Notes under the pieces: generated by a model
Seen by the model: the letters and a program-made list of their open reading frames with translations, nothing else
Databases searched by the model: none
What the model was told of the DNA's origin: nothing
Position numbers and translations under genes: made by a program
Part shown: piece by piece, positions 2,964 through 8,609 of the stretch
Layout: the number at the start of each line of letters is the position of its first letter
How positions within the stretch are numbered: position 1 is the first letter of the stretch
Assembly (NCBI GenBank): GCA_018822435.1
Contig: JAHJKD010000014.1
Coordinates: forward strand, 1 to 34,548
From: Patescibacteria group bacterium
GTDB lineage: Bacteria; Patescibacteriota; Patescibacteriia; UBA9570; JAHJKD01
Direction of reading: 5' to 3'
DNA length: 34,548 nt

Positions 2964-4646
2964 ATGCCCAAAAAGCAGTGTAAAAATTGTAACAAAACAT
3001 TCCCTATCCATGATAGGGACCTTGAGTTTTATAAAAGGATCGATGTGCCAGAGCCTACTTGGTGTCCGGATTGCCGTAACATGCGTCGCTCAGCTTTTCG
3101 ACAAGAAAGAACTCTTTATAATAGAAAATGCGACCTTTGCAAGAAGGATGTTGTTTCTCTATATCCGGCTGACAGTGAATACACTATTTATTGTCATGAT
3201 TGCTGGTGGTCAGACAAATGGGATCCTCTAGAATTCGGCCAGGAATATAATGAAAACAAAAGTTTTTTCAGGCAATTTGGTGATCTAATGAAGAAAGTTC
3301 CGCGGGTGGCCACGATCGGGGCTCATAACCAAAATTGCGAATTTGTTAATTACACCAATTATTCTAAAGATAGTTATTTGATTTACGGCTGTCACCAGGC
3401 AGAAAGATGTTTTTATTCTTGGCGCATACATCATAGTAAAGACTCTTTAGATTGCCTGCAAACGACAAAATCTGAACTTTGTTATTACGGAATTGATTTG
3501 GAAGATTCCTATAACACTCATTTTGCTTATCAAGTTAAAGGCTGCCAGGATTGCAGCTTTATTTTTGATTGCCGCGGATGTAAAAATTGTTTCATGTCTG
3601 CCAATTTAAGAAATAGTGAATATGTTTATAAAAATAAACAGCTTACTCGGGAAGAATATGAGAAAGCGATTTCTAAACATGATCTTAGCTCAAGAAAAGA
3701 ACAGAAGAAGTTGTGGCAGGAGTTTAAAGAATTAATAGAGAAAAAAGCTATTCATCGTTCCGTAAATAGTATAAATTCAGAAAATATTACAGGCGATAAT
3801 TTTATTAATGCCAAAAATTGCCATTATGCTTTTAATGTAAAGAACGGAGAAAATTCATCCTATTTTTTCTTTGGAGAAGATATTAAGGACTGTTATGACA
3901 GCACTTTTACTGGTTGGCCAGGCGAACTGATGTATGAAAATTTAAGTGGAGGCGTAAAAAATTATAATACGCATTTTGGAATAGTCTGCTGGAGCTGTAA
4001 AGATTCTTATTATTCAGATAATTGCCATCATTCCCAAAATATATTTGGTTGTTCTGGTTTGAAAAAAAATGAGTATTGTATTTTAAATAAGCAATACACA
4101 GAAGAGGAATATTTGGCATTAAAAGATAAGATCGTAAAAAAGATGAAGGGGGATAAGGAGTATGGAGAATTTTTCCCAGTTGAAATCTCTCCATTTGGAT
4201 ATAATGAAACCATGGCCCAAGAATTTTATCCTAAGAAAAAAGAAGAAGTAAAGAATCGAGGTTGGCAATGGCAGGAAGACCTGCCTGGAACAACTGGCCA
4301 GGAGACTCTAATAGAAATTCCTGATAATATTAAAGAGGTTAAAGAAAATATTTTAAAAGAAGTATTAGCTTGTGAAAAATGCCAGCACAATTATAAAATC
4401 ATTAAACCAGAGTTAGATCTACTCAAGCAATTAAATCTAACAGTTTCTAAAATGTGCCCGAATTGCCGTCATGAAGAAAGGTGGAGCTTAAGAAATCCTT
4501 TCCATCTTTGGAATCGGCAATGTATGTGCACTCAACCTGATCATGGCCATCCCGGCAGATGTAAAAATACTTTTGAAACTTCCCATGATCCAGAGAAATT
4601 AGAAATAGTTTATTGCGAGCGGTGTTATAATAAAGAAATCTATTGA
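2964..4646 (+). CDS. Cysteine-rich zinc-ribbon/beta-helix-like paralog (560 aa)
   Basis: Same architecture as the copy at 820 with all four Cys modules intact. Zinc ribbon 1 uses C6, C9, C34 and C37 around the conserved core DRDLEFYKRIDVPEPTWCPD; zinc ribbon 2 uses C56, C59, C77 and C80 followed by WWSDKWDPLEFGQEY. Two repeat blocks are separated by a charged helical linker (YKNKQLTREEYEKAI). Zinc ribbon 3 (CEKC...MCPNCRH) and the terminal module (QCMCTQPDHGHPGRC...YCERCYNKEIY) close the protein. Ribbons 1 and 3 resemble each other, suggesting internal duplication. No secretion signal. The stop codon is five bases before the 3' end of a tRNA-like RNA encoded on the opposite strand. No strong + strand terminator separates it from the next two copies, so they may share a transcript. 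Confidence 0.9.
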   Translation: MPKKQCKNCNKTFPIHDRDLEFYKRIDVPEPTWCPDCRNMRRSAFRQERTLYNRKCDLCKKDVVSLYPADSEYTIYCHDCWWSDKWDPLEFGQEYNENKSFFRQFGDLMKKVPRVATIGAHNQNCEFVNYTNYSKDSYLIYGCHQAERCFYSWRIHHSKDSLDCLQTTKSELCYYGIDLEDSYNTHFAYQVKGCQDCSFIFDCRGCKNCFMSANLRNSEYVYKNKQLTREEYEKAISKHDLSSRKEQKKLWQEFKELIEKKAIHRSVNSINSENITGDNFINAKNCHYAFNVKNGENSSYFFFGEDIKDCYDSTFTGWPGELMYENLSGGVKNYNTHFGIVCWSCKDSYYSDNCHHSQNIFGCSGLKKNEYCILNKQYTEEEYLALKDKIVKKMKGDKEYGEFFPVEISPFGYNETMAQEFYPKKKEEVKNRGWQWQEDLPGTTGQETLIEIPDNIKEVKENILKEVLACEKCQHNYKIIKPELDLLKQLNLTVSKMCPNCRHEERWSLRNPFHLWNRQCMCTQPDHGHPGRCKNTFETSHDPEKLEIVYCERCYNKEIY

Positions 4647-4651
4647 TAATT

Positions 4652-4760
4652 TATATCTCAAAGGATGGAGCGAGGGGGAATCGAACCCCAGCGTCAAGAT
4701 GGTAAGCCTGACTTCGGAACCATCCGAACCCGCCCCTCACTAACCACCCTTAAAGATATA
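4652..4760 (-). ncRNA. tRNA-like RNA, copy 1 (cloverleaf core 4666-4736)
   Basis: On the - strand a full cloverleaf can be drawn. The acceptor stem is GGGGCGG with TCGCTCC (7 bp with G-U wobbles), then discriminator A and no CCA. The D arm is TCGG-ATGGTT-CCGA. The anticodon arm is TCAGG/CTTGA with an 8-base loop, CTTACCAT. The T arm is GGGG-TTCGATT-CCCC with a T:C mismatch at its base. A 15-bp outer stem (4652-4666 with 4746-4760) encloses it, leaving a 9-base bulge (GGTTAGTGA) on the 5' side. The wobbles become C-A mismatches on the + strand, which points to the - strand as the functional one. No standard aminoacyl identity fits because the anticodon loop has one extra base; T33 and A37 equivalents are present. 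It could be a divergent tRNA, a tRNA mimic or a regulatory target. Confidence 0.75.
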
Positions 4761-4775
4761 AATTGTAAAATAACA

Positions 4776-4804
4776 AAAATAAAAAGCGCCCTATTAAGGA
4801 CGCC
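4776..4804 (-). terminator. Terminator between leader RNA 1 and tRNA-like copy 1
   Basis: Read on the - strand, GCGTCCT pairs with AGGGCGC around a TAAT loop and is followed by TTTTTATTTTT. The fourth pair is a U-G wobble that would be C-A on the + strand. The loop-closing pair is U-A here and C-G in copies 2 and 3, a compensatory change. Confidence 0.8.
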
Positions 4805-4845
4805 GAGGACCGGATGATTCCAAATTGAACATCAGGCTTACCACC
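4781..4845 (-). ncRNA. Leader RNA 1, complementary to tRNA-like copy 1
   Basis: Transcription predicted from the adjacent promoter would start at about 4845 with GGTGGTAAGCCTGA. This pairs with the anticodon loop and stem of tRNA-like copy 1; the end of the segment (GGAATCATCCG, down to 4810) pairs with its D arm, using one G-U wobble. An intrinsic terminator follows immediately, giving a possible RNA of about 65 bases. Whether the segment acts in trans as an antisense RNA or in cis within a longer transcript cannot be decided from sequence. Confidence 0.6.
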
Positions 4846-4851
4846 ATCCAA

Positions 4852-4880
4852 ATAATATCTTATTAAGAATAAATTGTCAA
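4852..4880 (-). promoter_or_regulatory. Promoter for ncRNA copy 1
   Basis: On the - strand, a perfect TTGACA (4880-4875), 17-base spacer and TATTAT (4857-4852). The predicted start is 7 bases further, exactly at the leader's GGTGGTAAG. The -35 box ends 6 bases before the ATG of the divergent paralog at 4887. Confidence 0.85.
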
Positions 4881-4886
4881 TATAAA

Positions 4887-6509
4887 ATGGGGAAAAAATC
4901 CTGCCAAAATTGCAATAAGACATTCCCTGTCCATGACCGGGACGTTGAGTTTTACAAGAGGATCGATGTGCCCGAGCCGACTTGGTGCCCAGATTGCCGC
5001 CAACAACGCCGCTTATCTTTTCGCAATCTGAAAAATCTTTATCTCAGAAAATGCGATTTTTCTGGTAAGCAGATAGTATCCAATTATTCCCCGGATAATC
5101 CATTTAAGGTTTATAAGCCCGATATATTCTGGTCTGATAAATGGGATGCGCTTGAATATGGCCAAGATTACGATTTCAACTGCGAATTTTTTGAACAATA
5201 TAAAGATCTTCAGAAACAAGTGCCCAGATTATCATTATATAATAAAGGTTGTGAAAATAGTGATTTTACGAATCACTCTACGTATAATAAAAATTGTTAC
5301 CTTTGTTTTAATTTAGCTTACTCGGAAAATTGCTTATACACATCTAATTTCGTCATCTATAGCAAAGACTGTGTTGATTGTTATGATATGCAGAAATCAG
5401 AATTATTATATGAATGTTTTAGAATTCGGGAATGTTATAATTCGGAGTATTTATTCCACTGTACCAAATGTTTTGACTCAAGTTTTTTGTATGATTGTAA
5501 TGGCTGTAATAATTGTTTTATGTGTTACAACTTGAGGAATCAAGAATATTGTATTTTTAATAAAAAATATTCTAAACAAGAATATCAGGAAAAACTGGAA
5601 AAATTAAAACCACACTCATATGAAGATTGGCAAAAAAAGAGGCAAGAGTTTTTAGATCTGATTGCCAATAAAGCCATACATAAATATGCGCGCATTGAAA
5701 AAAGTGAAAATTGTACTGGTGATCAATTAGGCAATGATCGTAATGTGATCGATTCTTATGCTGGATTTGAATCTGAAAATAGTCGATATTGTTATGATTT
5801 TGGAGAAATAAAAGATTGTTGTGATGCTTATGAAACTTGGCGCGCAGAATTGCTTTACGAGACGCATGCATTCAATGAGAGCCAAAGATTAATTGGCTGT
5901 TCTATTGGAGTTGGCCTGACTGACAGTGCTTATTGTGAGTTCTGTTATAATTCTAAAAATTTATTCGGATGTATTAGTCTGCATAAAAAAGAAAATTGCA
6001 TTTTAAATAAGCAATATAGTGAGAATGATTATAAGAGGTTAAAAGAAAAAATTATTGCTCACATGAAAAAGACAGGGGAATGGGGCGAATTCTTTCCTAT
6101 GGATTTATCGCCTTTTGCCTATAACGAAACCGTAGCCCAAGAATATTATCCCTTGGATAAAGACCGCGTTAAAGCGCTAAGATTAGAGTGGAAAAAGCCA
6201 GAAGATAAAGTAGATGATCCTCAAGCCAAGAAATGTTCATCTTGTAATCGCAGTTTTAAAATTGTCCCCCAGGAAGCAGAATTTTATAAAAATAAAAAAC
6301 TACCAGAACCAGAAAAATGTTTTGATTGCCGCTATAATGACAGGATTAGTTTGCGGGACGCGCGCCACATCTGGAAACGCCAATGCATGTGCACCCAGCC
6401 CGACCACGGTCACCAAGGCCGCTGCCCCAATGAATTCGAGACGACCTATTCCCCGGAGAGAAAAGAGCTGGTTTATTGTGAAGAGTGTTATAATAAAGAA
6501 ATCTATTGA
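4887..6509 (+). CDS. Cysteine-rich paralog with a degenerate second zinc ribbon (540 aa)
   Basis: Family member with zinc ribbon 1 intact (C6, C9, C34, C37). The second ribbon has lost three of four ligands: it reads CDFSGKQIVS, and the later CxxC is replaced by YKPDIFW, i.e. C59S, C77K and C80I in the numbering of the 2964 copy. The two Cys-rich repeat blocks, the CILNKQYSENDY segment, the third ribbon (CSSC...CFDCRY) and the terminal module (QCMCTQPDHGHQGRC...YCEECYNKEIY) are intact. The first codons match the 6752 copy closely, consistent with recent duplication of gene plus intergenic element. Ribbon 2 is therefore probably structural or dispensable in this copy. No signal peptide. Expression may depend on read-through from the copy upstream, since no + strand promoter is clear. 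Confidence 0.9.
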   Translation: MGKKSCQNCNKTFPVHDRDVEFYKRIDVPEPTWCPDCRQQRRLSFRNLKNLYLRKCDFSGKQIVSNYSPDNPFKVYKPDIFWSDKWDALEYGQDYDFNCEFFEQYKDLQKQVPRLSLYNKGCENSDFTNHSTYNKNCYLCFNLAYSENCLYTSNFVIYSKDCVDCYDMQKSELLYECFRIRECYNSEYLFHCTKCFDSSFLYDCNGCNNCFMCYNLRNQEYCIFNKKYSKQEYQEKLEKLKPHSYEDWQKKRQEFLDLIANKAIHKYARIEKSENCTGDQLGNDRNVIDSYAGFESENSRYCYDFGEIKDCCDAYETWRAELLYETHAFNESQRLIGCSIGVGLTDSAYCEFCYNSKNLFGCISLHKKENCILNKQYSENDYKRLKEKIIAHMKKTGEWGEFFPMDLSPFAYNETVAQEYYPLDKDRVKALRLEWKKPEDKVDDPQAKKCSSCNRSFKIVPQEAEFYKNKKLPEPEKCFDCRYNDRISLRDARHIWKRQCMCTQPDHGHQGRCPNEFETTYSPERKELVYCEECYNKEIY

Positions 6510-6514
6510 AAATT

Positions 6515-6624
6515 TATATCTCAAAGGATGGAGCGAGGGGGAATCGAACCCCAGCGATTAGAGTGATAAGTCTAACGTCGGAACCATCCGAACCCGCCCC
6601 TCACAGTCCACCCTTAAAGATATA
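6515..6624 (-). ncRNA. tRNA-like RNA, copy 2 (core 6529-6600)
   Basis: Same fold as copy 1. The acceptor is GGGGCGG/TCGCTCC with discriminator A. The D arm is TCGG-ATGGTT-CCGA. The anticodon stem is TTAGA/TCTAA with an 8-base loop, CTTATCAC, followed by variable loop TCGC and the same T arm. The outer 15-bp stem is 6515-6529 with 6610-6624, and the 5' bulge is again 9 bases (GGACTGTGA). Anticodon-stem bases differ from copy 1 with pairing kept in four of five positions by compensatory or wobble changes, which supports a conserved RNA fold. Confidence 0.75.
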
Positions 6625-6641
6625 AATATGAAAAAAAGAAC

Positions 6642-6670
6642 AAAATAAAAGCGCCCCAAAATGGGACGCC
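6642..6670 (-). terminator. Terminator between leader RNA 2 and tRNA-like copy 2
   Basis: On the - strand GCGTCCCA pairs with TGGGGCGC (8 bp, one U-G wobble) with a TTT loop, followed by TTTTATTTTG. Confidence 0.8.
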
Positions 6671-6710
6671 GAGGTACAGATGGTTCCGACTTAACGTCAG
6701 ACTTATCACC
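6642..6710 (-). ncRNA. Leader RNA 2, complementary to tRNA-like copy 2
   Basis: Starts at about 6710 with GGTGATAAGTCT. The segment down to 6677 pairs with the anticodon loop and stem and, through CGGAACCATC, with the D arm of copy 2, with a 4-base insertion and one mismatch. The specific bases differ from copy 1 in both partners. It runs into the terminator at 6642-6670. Confidence 0.6.
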
Positions 6711-6716
6711 ATTAAA

Positions 6717-6745
6717 AATATATCTCAGAATTATTAATATGTCAA
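6717..6745 (-). promoter_or_regulatory. Promoter for ncRNA copy 2
   Basis: On the - strand, TTGACA (6745-6740), 17-base spacer and TATATT (6722-6717). Seven bases further lies the G at 6710 that begins GGTGATAAG. Confidence 0.85.
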
Positions 6746-6751
6746 TTTAAA

Positions 6752-8374
6752 ATGGGGAAAAAATCCTGCCAACAATGCAATAAATCATTTGTCATTACAG
6801 ACAATGATTTTGAATTCTATAAAAAAATAGACGTGCCCGGCCCTACTTTATGTCCAGACTGCCGCCAACAACGAAGACTTTCCCATCGAACACGTAATTT
6901 TCATTTACGCGACTGTGATCTTTGTGGTAAGAAAACCATGTCTATGTATGCCCCAGAAATAAAGGGCAATAAATTTTTTTGTAATGAATGTTTTCAATCT
7001 GATAAATGGGACGCTTTAAATTATGGTCGTGATTTTGATTTTAGCCGGCCATTTTTTGAACAGTTCAATGAACTTTATAAGGAAGCGCCTAAGCATATTT
7101 CCAATACGATCCGCTCGGAAAATTCCGAATACATCATCAACGCCCATAAGTGCAAAAACTGCTATATGCTGGATGAAGTTGATTACGGGGAGAATTGCTT
7201 TTACGGCTACTGCCTGCAGTATTGCAGGGATTGCGTGGATTGCATTTATATAAACAAGTGCGAAATAGGATACGAATTAGTTAAATGCGAAAATTGCTAT
7301 AATACTTTTTTTGCATTCAATTCCCATAATTGTACCGACTGCACTTTCATGGCTAATTGCCGCGGCTGCACTGACTGTCTTTTTTGCACGAACCTGCGCA
7401 ATGCCAAGGAGCATCTCTTCAATAAGCCGGCCAGCAAAGACGAGATAAAAAAAGCACGGGAAAAATATTTTACAGGCAAATATGAAGATCTGCAAAAAGG
7501 AATCCAAGAATATCAGAATATGCTGAAAAAGATGATCGTGCCCCACCTGATCGGCGCCAAGAATGAAATTTCAACTGGAAATTATTTAGTTAATACAAAA
7601 AATTGTCTGGATAGTTATGGAATAGATAATTCAGAGAATTGCCGCTTTTGCACGGATATTCATTTTTCCAAGGATTGCTACGACATTCACATATATGTTT
7701 CTGAATTTTCCTACGAATGCCTTCATGCCGGGCCCGAGGGCTATCATCAGGTTGGCGCGCATTTATGCTGGTATGGGTCGGATATTTTTTATTGCGATGA
7801 ATGCCATAACTGCCAGGACTGCCTGGGTTGTGCCAGCCTAAAAAAGAAGAAGCATTGCATTTTTAACAAGCAATATGAAAAAGGGGAGTATGAGAAATTA
7901 CGCGATAAAATCATTGCTCATATGAAAGAGACCGGAGAGTGGGGAGAATATTTTCCCGCTAAATATTCACCACATAGTTATGATCAGACATATGCCCAGG
8001 AATTTTATCCCTTGAAAAAAGATGAGGCCGTCTTCCGGGGATTTAATTGGCTAGACCATAAGGAAAAGGAATTCCAGCCTGATCAAAAAGTATTAATATG
8101 CGAACAATCAGGAAAAAATTTCATAGCTACCAAAGCCGAACAAGATTTTTATAAAAAATATAGTTTGCCATGGCCGCGCATCGCTCCGGAAGTGAGAATC
8201 TCCAATAAATTCAAGCAGACCGGCCACCGCCGCCTCTGGCAGCGTCAATGCACGTGCACCCAGCCCGACCACGACCACCCAGGCAGATGCCCAAATGAAT
8301 TCGAAACGACTTATTCACCAGAAAGGAAGGAGTTAGTTTATTGCGAAAGTTGTTATAACAAAGAAATTTATTAG
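6752..8374 (+). CDS. Cysteine-rich paralog with a degenerate third zinc ribbon (540 aa)
   Basis: Zinc ribbons 1 (CQQC...CPDC) and 2 (CDLC...FFCNEC) are intact. The two repeat blocks are among the most regular in the family (KCKNCYM, NCTDCTF, NCRGCTDCLFC, NCQDCLGC) and favour a beta-helix with a cysteine ladder. The third ribbon is broken: around residue 450 it reads CEQSGKN and the distal pair is replaced by RIAPEVR, so only one ligand remains. The replacement resembles that in ribbon 2 of the preceding copy (CxxSGK plus a proline), as if the same change was tolerated twice. The terminal module (QCTCTQPDHDHPGRC...YCESCYNKEIY) is intact. It ends in TAG, five bases before the third tRNA-like element. 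Confidence 0.9.
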   Translation: MGKKSCQQCNKSFVITDNDFEFYKKIDVPGPTLCPDCRQQRRLSHRTRNFHLRDCDLCGKKTMSMYAPEIKGNKFFCNECFQSDKWDALNYGRDFDFSRPFFEQFNELYKEAPKHISNTIRSENSEYIINAHKCKNCYMLDEVDYGENCFYGYCLQYCRDCVDCIYINKCEIGYELVKCENCYNTFFAFNSHNCTDCTFMANCRGCTDCLFCTNLRNAKEHLFNKPASKDEIKKAREKYFTGKYEDLQKGIQEYQNMLKKMIVPHLIGAKNEISTGNYLVNTKNCLDSYGIDNSENCRFCTDIHFSKDCYDIHIYVSEFSYECLHAGPEGYHQVGAHLCWYGSDIFYCDECHNCQDCLGCASLKKKKHCIFNKQYEKGEYEKLRDKIIAHMKETGEWGEYFPAKYSPHSYDQTYAQEFYPLKKDEAVFRGFNWLDHKEKEFQPDQKVLICEQSGKNFIATKAEQDFYKKYSLPWPRIAPEVRISNKFKQTGHRRLWQRQCTCTQPDHDHPGRCPNEFETTYSPERKELVYCESCYNKEIY

Positions 8375-8379
8375 ATTTT

Positions 8380-8489
8380 TATATCTCAAAGGATGGAGCG
8401 AGGGGGAATCGAACCCCGGCGTTTAGGGTGATAATCCTAACGGTAGAACCATCTGCACTCGCCCCTCGCCGGCCATCCTTAAAGATATA
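8380..8489 (-). ncRNA. tRNA-like RNA, copy 3 (core 8394-8465)
   Basis: The acceptor is GGGGCGA/TCGCTCC, fully paired with one wobble. The D arm is GCAG-ATGGTT-CTAC with one mismatch. The anticodon stem is TTAGG/CCTAA with 8-base loop ATTATCAC, then ACGC and a T arm GGGG-TTCGATT-CCCC. The seventh acceptor pair is A-U here and G-U in the other copies. The outer stem is 8380-8394 with 8475-8489 and the 5' bulge is again 9 bases (GGCCGGCGA). No CCA follows discriminator A. Confidence 0.75.
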
Positions 8490-8506
8490 AAATATAAAAG
8501 AGAATA

Positions 8507-8533
8507 AACAAAAAGCGCCCCAAATGGGACGCC
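8507..8533 (-). terminator. Terminator between leader RNA 3 and tRNA-like copy 3
   Basis: On the - strand a 7-bp stem (8526-8532 with 8515-8521) with one U-G wobble and a 4-base loop is followed by TTTTTG. Confidence 0.8.
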
Positions 8534-8573
8534 GAGATACAGATGGTTCTGAGTAATCGCTAGGATTATCACC
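8507..8573 (-). ncRNA. Leader RNA 3, complementary to tRNA-like copy 3
   Basis: Starts at about 8573 with GGTGATAATCCTA and includes AGAACCATCTG near 8540-8551. These pair with the anticodon loop and stem and with the D arm of copy 3; only the middle of the segment differs. A terminator on the - strand (GCGTCCC-ATTT-GGGGCGC then TTTTTG, 8510-8532) closes the predicted RNA of about 65 bases. Confidence 0.6.
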
Positions 8574-8580
8574 TAATACT

Positions 8581-8609
8581 AATATATATCTTTTCTTGGT
8601 TTGAGTCAA
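8581..8609 (-). promoter_or_regulatory. Promoter for ncRNA copy 3
   Basis: On the - strand, TTGACT (8609-8604), 17-base spacer and TATATT (8586-8581), followed after 7-8 bases by GGTGATAATCC. Confidence 0.82.

Follow-up and report, generated by a model that had tools for sequence, protein, structure and literature searches.

Two RNA genes in each of three gaps

The window, the whole 34,548-nucleotide stretch analysed here (contig JAHJKD010000014.1 of the Patescibacteria assembly GCA_018822435.1), contains three gaps that each encode two RNA genes on the − strand, an antisense RNA (S) and a tRNA-like RNA (R). S is a short antisense RNA of ∼65 nt with a strong predicted promoter and a terminator. 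In copy 1, the R core (G1 to A73) lies at 4666–4736 on the − strand, scores 85.5 bits with model R3, and comprises an acceptor stem of GGGGCGG/UCGCUCC with a G3:U70 pair and an anticodon-like triplet ACC at 4701–4703. The extended outer stem (4746–4763 paired with 4649–4666, with a 9-nt 5′ bulge at 4737–4745) brings the whole element to 4649–4763. S copy 1 (4781–4845, − strand, predicted +1 at ∼4845) is antisense to the anticodon and D arms of R copy 1 and ends in a terminator hairpin (4786–4804) and T run (4781–4785). Its predicted promoter occupies 4852–4880 on the same strand, with a −35 element TTGACA (4875–4880) and a −10 element TATTAT (4852–4857) separated by a spacer of 17.

The other two copies repeat this layout, again on the − strand. 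The core of R copy 2 (6529–6600) has the acceptor stem GGGGCGG/UCGCUCC with G3:U70 and A73, the triplet AUC at 6565–6567, and an outer stem that extends it to 6512–6627 (6610–6627 with 6512–6529; 9-nt bulge 6601–6609). S copy 2 (6646–6710; predicted +1 ∼6710; terminator hairpin 6651–6670) is preceded by a promoter at 6717–6745 (TTGACA 6740–6745; TATATT 6717–6722; spacer 17). The core of R copy 3 (8394–8465) has the acceptor stem GGGGCGA/UCGCUCC with G3:U70 and A73, the triplet AUC at 8430–8432, and an outer stem that extends it to 8378–8491 (8475–8491 with 8378–8394; 9-nt bulge 8466–8474). S copy 3 (8509–8574; predicted +1 ∼8574; terminator hairpin 8515–8533) follows a promoter at 8581–8609 (TTGACT 8604–8609; TATATT 8581–8586; spacer 17).

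In all three copies the predicted +1 of S is the start of the antisense block or 1 nt upstream of it, and beyond the antisense segment come a G+C-rich hairpin and a T run. The R acceptor stems have seven of seven pairs together with A73, and our reading of the sequence and pair lists gives an outer stem of 17–18 positions with one U-U mismatch, separated from the acceptor stem by nine unpaired bases on the 5′ side. The first-pass annotation, made from the sequence alone, had described three − strand copies of these parts, each with a consensus-quality promoter with a 17-base spacer, an antisense segment at about +1 followed by a terminator, and a constant 9-base bulge; we located each of these where it had been placed, the +1 being predicted. 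Its observation that the wobble pairs make sense only on the − strand also holds, for example for G3:U70. The outer stem it described is present, but its 15 bp was slightly low, and the complete cloverleaf it proposed agrees with the fully paired acceptor stem and A73 but not with the minimum-energy fold of pre-R, which is a long hairpin in which the 3′ end is concealed. We also considered and rejected a leaderless frame for S, as by eye the frames differ between copies.

The computed S:R duplex energies of the three cognate pairs in the window were −65.7, −69.5 and −63.6 kcal/mol, against −47.9 to −61.5 kcal/mol for the six non-cognate combinations. A fourth R/S pair resides elsewhere in the source genome, where S scores slightly better with a leucine tRNA (−39.8) than with its own R (−39.3). 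In Rfam, the tRNA family RF00005 reached the gathering level at none of the three window copies, but did so at the fourth copy (44.4 bits) and at a relative, L063 (46.3 bits). The three sites have no gathering-level Rfam match of any kind, and nothing like the element was met in the literature searched, in line with its being called undescribed at first.

A family of R/S pairs across Patescibacteria

Screening 631 genomes of the ultra-small Patescibacteria with model R3 yielded at least 56 R/S pairs in at least 37 genomes, a lower bound since only the best-scoring model matches were taken into the pair search. Model R3 matches nearly every genome (376/379 and 284/285), and of the 29 loci that model R1 contributed, 24 contained a tRNA in a first ARAGORN check, so model match counts are not family counts. 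The models were built from R, which biases the relatives found toward R-like acceptors, and 52 of the 56 were admitted on condition of having G3:U70 with A73; L083, L183 and L199 were retained despite a failed G3:U70 parse, and L080 was added by hand. Before this count we dropped 13 rows that matched a neighbouring or tandem tRNA (two each at L116, L017 and L117, and one each at L138, L037, L188, L147, L196, L168 and L174), as well as L098, L165 (whose triplet is AGC, and which may be an R whose S escaped detection) and all rows with an antisense score below 9.5, of which L192 (9.0) may be real. L018, the copy between uvrC and uvrA in genome G139, has an A2-C71 mismatch; it failed the parse and stands outside the 56. 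L049, at first a candidate homologue, turned out by eye to be a tRNA-Gly. An unexplained further match at position 264 of L141 was left out of the count.

The position of S varies across the family: it is on the same strand as R in 25 pairs upstream and 19 downstream, and on the opposite strand in 11 downstream and one upstream. The order of leader, terminator and tRNA-like domain in the first-pass annotation thus holds in the window but is no general rule across the 56 pairs, and the label 'leader' does not fit an RNA that elsewhere is encoded after R or on the other strand from it. Distribution is patchy, with carriers making up 4 of the 11 genomes of one family, while the source genome and genome G431 have four copies each. 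BLAST with copy 2 against 57 genomes found, outside the source genome, only four short A+T-rich linker matches.

The earlier suggestion that the RNA system is linked to the zinc-ribbon genes was not supported. At L050 and L051 the R/S pair is found between uvrC and uvrA, and the window RNA genes were therefore most simply duplicated together with the zinc-ribbon gene; beyond this joint tandem duplication we found no tie between these genes and the RNA pair. Exact-pattern scans of viral contigs found no R/S, and on these scans phage or viral carriage was rejected for the RNA pair; for the protein it was rejected on a separate search. In a further search no record spanned 80% of the query, and the top matches listed were to phage tRNA genes or covered short stretches.

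S and R covary in trans

S is complementary to the anticodon arm, and often also to the D arm, of the neighbouring R. Across 37 contiguous pairs and an 18-position window, with register and pairs preselected, 0.898 of cells were paired, compared with a mean of 0.562 and a maximum of 0.639 in 1000 shuffles of the partners; almost every stem position shows the four Watson-Crick types. When the preselection was removed, at least 14 of 16 positions were paired in 32 of 53 cognate combinations and in 50 of 2756 non-cognate ones (mean paired 13.26 and 10.33, respectively). The orthologous uvrC-uvrA copies of two genera differ by three two-sided compensatory changes, with 17 of 17 pairs kept. Relatives in other genomes have the same parts and covary, the opposite of the sequence pattern that the first-pass annotation had named as counting against it, and together with the preference for the cognate duplex in the window this confirms that the observation is more than chance. 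On this covariation, S and R very probably pair as RNAs in trans.

Single measures separate the family less sharply. In the matrix of duplex energies the cognate R ranks first for only 34 of the 56 S, and the antisense score by itself gives no clean separation: a score of at least 12.5 was reached by 52 of 83 G3:U70/A73 entries, but also by 20 of the 111 other tRNAs and by 5 of the 194 mismatched flanks. We read most of those 20 as matching a tRNA gene close by on the opposite strand. In 44 of the 56 pairs the predicted +1 of S is no more than 3 nt from the antisense block, and in nine it is 25–36 nt before it; the three misfits are L048 (−7), L131 (17) and L189 (16), of which the L048 pair gave −1 as L012. 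In the loci read, no promoter-linked S accompanied an ordinary tRNA-Ala gene. The same loci hold 31 G3:U70/A73 tRNAs outside the pair list, 24 of which read as NGC, and none of the 31 combined an antisense score of at least 9.5 with a promoter score of at least 8.5 at S offsets.

Alanine identity elements with non-alanine anticodons

R retains A73, G1-C72, G2-C71 and G3:U70, and the published bacterial alanine set, as given in the accessible text of PMC9976931, comprises A73, G2-C71, G3:U70, G4-C69 and G20. Of 36 pairs chosen on their antisense match, prior to any look at their identity, 34 had G3:U70 in the best acceptor parse together with A73, although in L018 one of the seven acceptor pairs, 2:71, is broken; of the exceptions, L059 fits after a 1-nt shift and L083 fits by eye. 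The corresponding count of 53 of 56 is not independent, because these elements were an entry condition for 52. In L199 the acceptor is threonine-like and the triplet is GGU, a combination that appears to be self-consistent and non-alanine, while in L183 G3:U70 sits, by eye, inside a poorly paired stem.

The anticodon arm tells a different story from this identity set, which the first-pass annotation had not remarked on. A rough script count over the 56 R gave the triplets GUC (14), GAC (14), ACC (8), AUC (7), GCC (4), AGC (3) and AAC (2), with four unread; some are misread, as L099 is GAU and L141 GAC by eye. The triplets are mostly purine-N-C, corresponding to Val, Asp, Gly and rarely Ala codons of the form GNY. 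L083, L085 and L114 read AGC, which is alanine-cognate; the other alanine-type R have an anticodon-like triplet of an amino acid differing from their identity elements. The anticodon loop has 8–10 nt in 42 of 56 and 7 nt in 11 of 56, and an enlarged loop may decode poorly. Inspected by eye, 36 anticodon arms all have U33 and a purine at 34, with C36 in 35 and A37 in 35; C33 was seen in four later R (L086, L131, L132 and L183). A73 is not directly followed by CCA in 27 of 56, and the evidence for promoters of R is weak (mean best −10 match 4.66 versus 4.08).

The source genome has ordinary tRNAs for Ala (UGC, CGC, GGC), Val (GAC, UAC, CAC), Asp (GUC) and Gly (GCC), so R is additional to these. 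Its identity set suggests that R is probably alanylated; that it goes on to decode GNY codons has a little less than an even chance.

Comparison with known systems

The tRNA-ProX family with ProRSx was reportedly described by Vargas-Rodriguez in 2021 and Schuntermann in 2023. Its members (tRNA-ProA, -ProN and -ProT, with ProRSx) in Streptomyces and Kitasatospora reportedly mistranslate and prove toxic in E. coli (PMC10365949, accessible text). R too has a dual identity, the body of one amino acid and the anticodon of another, but its body is alanine, its partner is an antisense RNA, its anticodon loop is mostly enlarged, and it belongs to a different phylum. No special synthetase is needed for R because the alanine synthetase does not read the anticodon, and none was found adjacent to it among the ten window proteins or, by eye, in the first 4 kb of L048 and in L050. 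At L051 a MetRS-like ORF was noted by eye ∼4 kb away.

In RNAI/RNAII, CopA/CopT and type I toxin-antitoxin systems the sense and antisense RNAs overlap in the DNA, and their complementarity is automatic. S and R resemble all of these in having a short, strongly promoted antisense RNA, a structured target and complementary loops; unlike them they are separate genes, and hence must covary. Compared with type I systems, R is tRNA-like with identity elements and is no mRNA, with no toxin peptide known. A T-box riboswitch pairs a codon-like segment with an anticodon near a terminator, as S does, whereas S pairs along the arm including its stem, targets a neighbouring tRNA-like gene, can itself be on either strand, and in 31 of 56 pairs is encoded after R or on the other strand, unlike an upstream T-box leader; no gathering-level T-box match occurs in the window. 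tmRNA is likewise tRNA-like with G3:U70 alanine identity, but R possesses both a D arm and an anticodon arm and lacks the length for a tmRNA reading frame and pseudoknots; Rfam similarity to the tmRNA clan is weak (best 38.4 bits against a threshold of 47), and YrlA (bacterial Y RNA) is not among the Rfam matches listed. Unusual anticodon stems in bacterial tRNAs (PMC7609411, PMC13092985) and UGA reassignment in Patescibacteriota (PMC13092985) have been reported, and the word 'antisense' is absent from the accessible main text of both papers. Among the titles and abstract openings listed in searches of open-access PMC articles, none describes a Patescibacteria RNA that is antisense to a tRNA-like gene, an absence that is not proof.

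A proposed switch and its alternatives

The sequence supports two genes, S-R complementarity with covariation in trans, an alanine identity set, and a predicted S promoter, and these parts support a self-paired, probably regulatory RNA system, as the first-pass annotation had it. We propose that S, in pairing with the anticodon loop, its stem and often the D arm, would unfold the cloverleaf of R and mask its anticodon, most likely keeping R silent by default. If S fell or R rose, free R would be charged with alanine and would insert it at GNY codons, so that mistranslation would come in a burst that the cell could control. That S is a negative regulator of R we consider probable; the whole chain, in which S silences a chimeric alanine tRNA and so regulates mistranslation at GNY codons, is put forward tentatively, as we infer the expression of R and S, their binding in vivo, silencing, charging, decoding and any benefit to the cell.

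An unlikely but credible alternative is RNA-only addiction, in which R is harmful, through mistranslation or by occupying AlaRS or ribosomes, and S is a labile antitoxin whose loss is costly, so that the module is kept. The strong predicted S promoters, the patchy distribution, the multiple copies per genome and the preference for the cognate partner would all suit such a module, but the exact-pattern scans found no R/S in viral contigs and the uvrC-uvrA copy is common to two genera, which suggests vertical inheritance. It is rather unlikely that R is an alanine donor outside translation (for peptidoglycan cross-bridges, lipid aminoacylation or C-terminal alanine tailing), with its anticodon keeping it off Ala codons and S controlling supply. 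Alanine identity is indeed the steadiest feature of R and its anticodon loop is unusual; against this, U33, purine 34, C36 and A37 are kept as if the loop were read (yet C33 occurs in the four later R), and the ORF lists of L048, L050 and L051, read by eye, show no conspicuous transferase gene next to R.

We regard as improbable a sponge arrangement, where S regulates mRNAs and R is a tRNA-shaped decoy: a strong promoter of its own and extensive pairing with R would be expected of such an S, but the kept acceptor identity and T loop of R, beside a varying S-pairing part, are left unexplained. A DNA element (palindrome or recombination site), or a cis attenuator whose leader pairs with the downstream tRNA-like part, is very improbable, for although in the window S and R share a strand and make up an inverted repeat, S lies downstream of R on the same strand in 19 of 56 pairs and on the opposite strand in 12 of 56, where the two are direct repeats in DNA, and opposite-strand S excludes both a palindrome and an attenuating leader. 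Decaying tRNA-Ala copies with chance complementarity, a reading that the tRNA-Ala-like acceptors and the few ARAGORN calls among those tested might invite, have a negligible probability given the covariation in trans, the promoter placement and the ordinary tRNA-Ala genes without a promoter-linked S.

The regulated-mistranslation reading may describe a phylum-wide fidelity switch, in which co-evolving antisense RNAs silence alanine tRNAs with the wrong anticodon and, when on, Val, Asp and Gly positions would receive alanine; this remains tentative, and some genomes would have several independently addressable copies. If true, a tRNA under its own antisense RNA would be a type of system that the literature searched did not contain, and would account for odd extra tRNAs that annotation skips or misnames. 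The regulation of mistranslating tRNAs is posed as an open question in the outlook of PMC11415595, within its accessible text, and would become directly testable with two short RNAs. Even without decoding, an RNA with alanine identity and an antisense partner that covaries with it in trans has no counterpart in the literature searched; with decoding, a vast bacterial group about which little is understood would possess a built-in, switchable mistranslation device.

Location and organisation of the RNA pair

A tRNA-like RNA gene (R) and a short antisense RNA gene paired with it (S), both on the − strand, were located in each of three gaps following the genes ending at 4646, 6509 and 8374 (copies c1–c3), which bears out the − strand layout described in the first-pass annotation. 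The 22-base T-arm motif of R has its only sites in the genome in these three gaps, with up to three mismatches allowed, and no Rfam family reached its gathering score at the three window sites. The genes flanking the gaps are paralogues, of which one lies above the Pfam cut-off for zf_Tbcl (treble-clef), one lies just below it, and the third has no Pfam match at the threshold used. The spacing of 1863/1865 is consistent with the gene and the RNA having been duplicated together. A 232-nt repeat occurs seven times between 439 and 16545, at the gene ends of Cys-rich paralogues with treble-clef-like parts, and the RNA pair is present in only three gaps of this array.

Each window S has a near-consensus promoter, which puts the predicted +1 no more than 1 nt from where the complementarity to R begins, and ends in a terminator hairpin followed by a T run. 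Its targets are the anticodon arm and D arm of its own R. Duplex energies were −65.7, −69.5 and −63.6 kcal/mol for the cognates and −47.9 to −61.5 kcal/mol for the non-cognates; against the 39 cellular tRNAs of the genome, each of the three S favoured its own R (−56.7, −56.3 and −54.0 versus −44.1, −45.8 and −39.7). The anticodon-like triplets of R are ACC in c1 and AUC in c2 and c3. On its 5′ side, R has nine unpaired bases and then a long outer stem tying down the 3′ end. With this stem included, R folds at minimum energy into a long hairpin, so the tRNA form may need processing.

Relatives in other Patescibacteria

The first-pass annotation had named homologues beyond the three copies as a check, and a search model built from these copies (R1) returned four true relatives in one other family, with S upstream in two of them and downstream in two. 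Two further models (R2 and R3) and an antisense scan widened the set to 56 R/S pairs in 37 genomes, a lower bound on prevalence, R3 being run on 379 + 285 genomes (631 different genomes). The predicted +1 of S lies within 3 nt of the antisense block in 44/56 pairs and 25–36 nt before it in nine, with a misfit in three. The mean S promoter score of 36 pairs was 10.47, compared with a mean of 8.18 and a 95th percentile of 10 for random draws from the loci (up to 400). The two antisense blocks of S are swapped in order around a hairpin in some species (some by eye), giving the same targets with a different topology.

A fourth pair in the window genome (L207) lies on contig C49, with R at ~4862–4933 (−) and triplet GAC by eye. 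This R exceeds the Rfam tRNA threshold at 44.4 bits, as does that of locus L063, and is labelled tRNA-Ser(UGA) by ARAGORN. Its S does not score best with its own R (−39.3 versus −39.8 for a cellular tRNA), and the predicted +1 precedes the block found by 30 nt, as in swapped-block S.

Two loci showed additional features. At L057 (G110:C77), the pair directly precedes a gene with an ArfB-type release factor-like start (GGQ motif, by eye). At L036 (~1420–1500 and 2370–2455), both copies in genome G136 are preceded by a near-identical promoter and short hairpin with a T run, as though R were preceded by an attenuator or by a further, third transcript of very small size.

Evidence for pairing between S and R in trans

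Among the 56 pairs, those with S and R on one strand have S upstream in 25 cases and downstream in 19; those with S on the opposite strand have it downstream in 11 and upstream in one. An opposite-strand S makes the matching segments direct repeats in the DNA, for which RNA pairing is the simple explanation. For 37 contiguous pairs the fraction of positions paired was 0.898 (1000 partner shuffles: mean 0.562, maximum 0.639), an optimistic figure because the register was chosen by four positions and pairs below 13/18 were left out. Without such selection, in the 53 of the 56 pairs with a readable triplet, at least 14/16 positions paired in 32/53 cognates versus 50/2756 non-cognates, and at least 12/16 in 38/53 versus 458/2756. 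In 49/56, S contains a perfect complement to U33 and the triplet. In the copies that lie between uvrC and uvrA in genomes G118 and G139, three of 17 R–S base pairs changed on both sides and four on one, with 17/17 paired; uvrC was identified by Pfam in both copies and a UvrA domain in L050, with which the UvrA of L051 shares 76% identity.

Alanine identity of R

The 7-bp acceptor of the window R cloverleaf, GGGGCGG (GGGGCGA in c3)/UCGCUCC, gives a G:U pair at 3:70 and A at base 73 in tRNA numbering, the core elements of the set that specifies alanine identity in bacteria (PMC9976931). Thirty-six pairs gathered before identity was examined provide a fair test: in 34 the best acceptor parse gives G3:U70, with A73, while L059 fits G3:U70 after a 1-nt shift and L083 by eye. 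Acceptor bases 4–7 vary jointly with their partners. The full-list count of 53/56 adds no independent support, since G3:U70 with A73 was an entry condition for 52 of the 56, and the search models themselves favour R-like acceptors.

The useful contrast runs in the reverse direction. The loci hold 194 tRNA or tRNA-like entries; G3:U70 with A73 is present in 83, of which 52 are in the pair list, and absent in 111, of which only L083, L183 and L199 are. An antisense score of at least 12.5 was reached by 52/83, 20/111 and, for mismatched flanks, 5/194, a noisier contrast; on our reading, adjacent tRNA genes account for most of the 20. Of 31 G3:U70/A73 entries that are not in the list, 24 carry NGC (17 UGC, 6 CGC, 1 AGC), and in 0/31 did an antisense match scoring at least 9.5 come with a linked promoter scoring at least 8.5. 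The window genome holds standard tRNAs for Ala, Val, Asp and Gly (42 of 43 hits re-read, the one on C39 excepted), and R is therefore no replacement for them.

L199 (G280:C2:411800-413200) holds a guarded tRNA-like gene whose acceptor, GCCGAUG/CAUCGGC with U73, is not of the alanine type and which, with its triplet GGU, looks threonine-like, suggesting that tRNA bodies other than alanine ones can also have an antisense guard. L140 (G013:C25:2800-4200) has a G3:U70/A73 tRNA whose 7-nt loop reads UAG (Leu) by eye, and no S for it was found within the locus. In L116, L117, L123 and L017, an ordinary-looking tRNA-Ala has another T arm and acceptor end within ~50 nt after it, with inverted acceptor-like repeats but no complete second tRNA.

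Proposed function

Several features weaken the decoding step: the R anticodon loop parses to 8–10 nt in 42/56 (other well-parsed tRNAs of the loci have 7 nt in 108/135), C33 occurs in four R (by eye), the triplet is AGC in three, L199 is threonine-like with GGU, and CCA directly follows A73 in 29/56.

Each component of the R/S system is of a known kind. No such system appears among the matches listed in the open-access literature, and no tRNA-type gene is known to us to have an antisense RNA dedicated to it and co-evolving with it. Chimeric mistranslating tRNAs are already represented by tRNA-ProX, which is reported to work with a special synthetase (PMC10365949), whereas R has an antisense RNA partner. 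The sequences support S–R pairing and alanine identity; in the mechanism we propose, S would silence R, R would be charged, and free R would put alanine at GNY codons (Val, Asp, Gly and Ala type).
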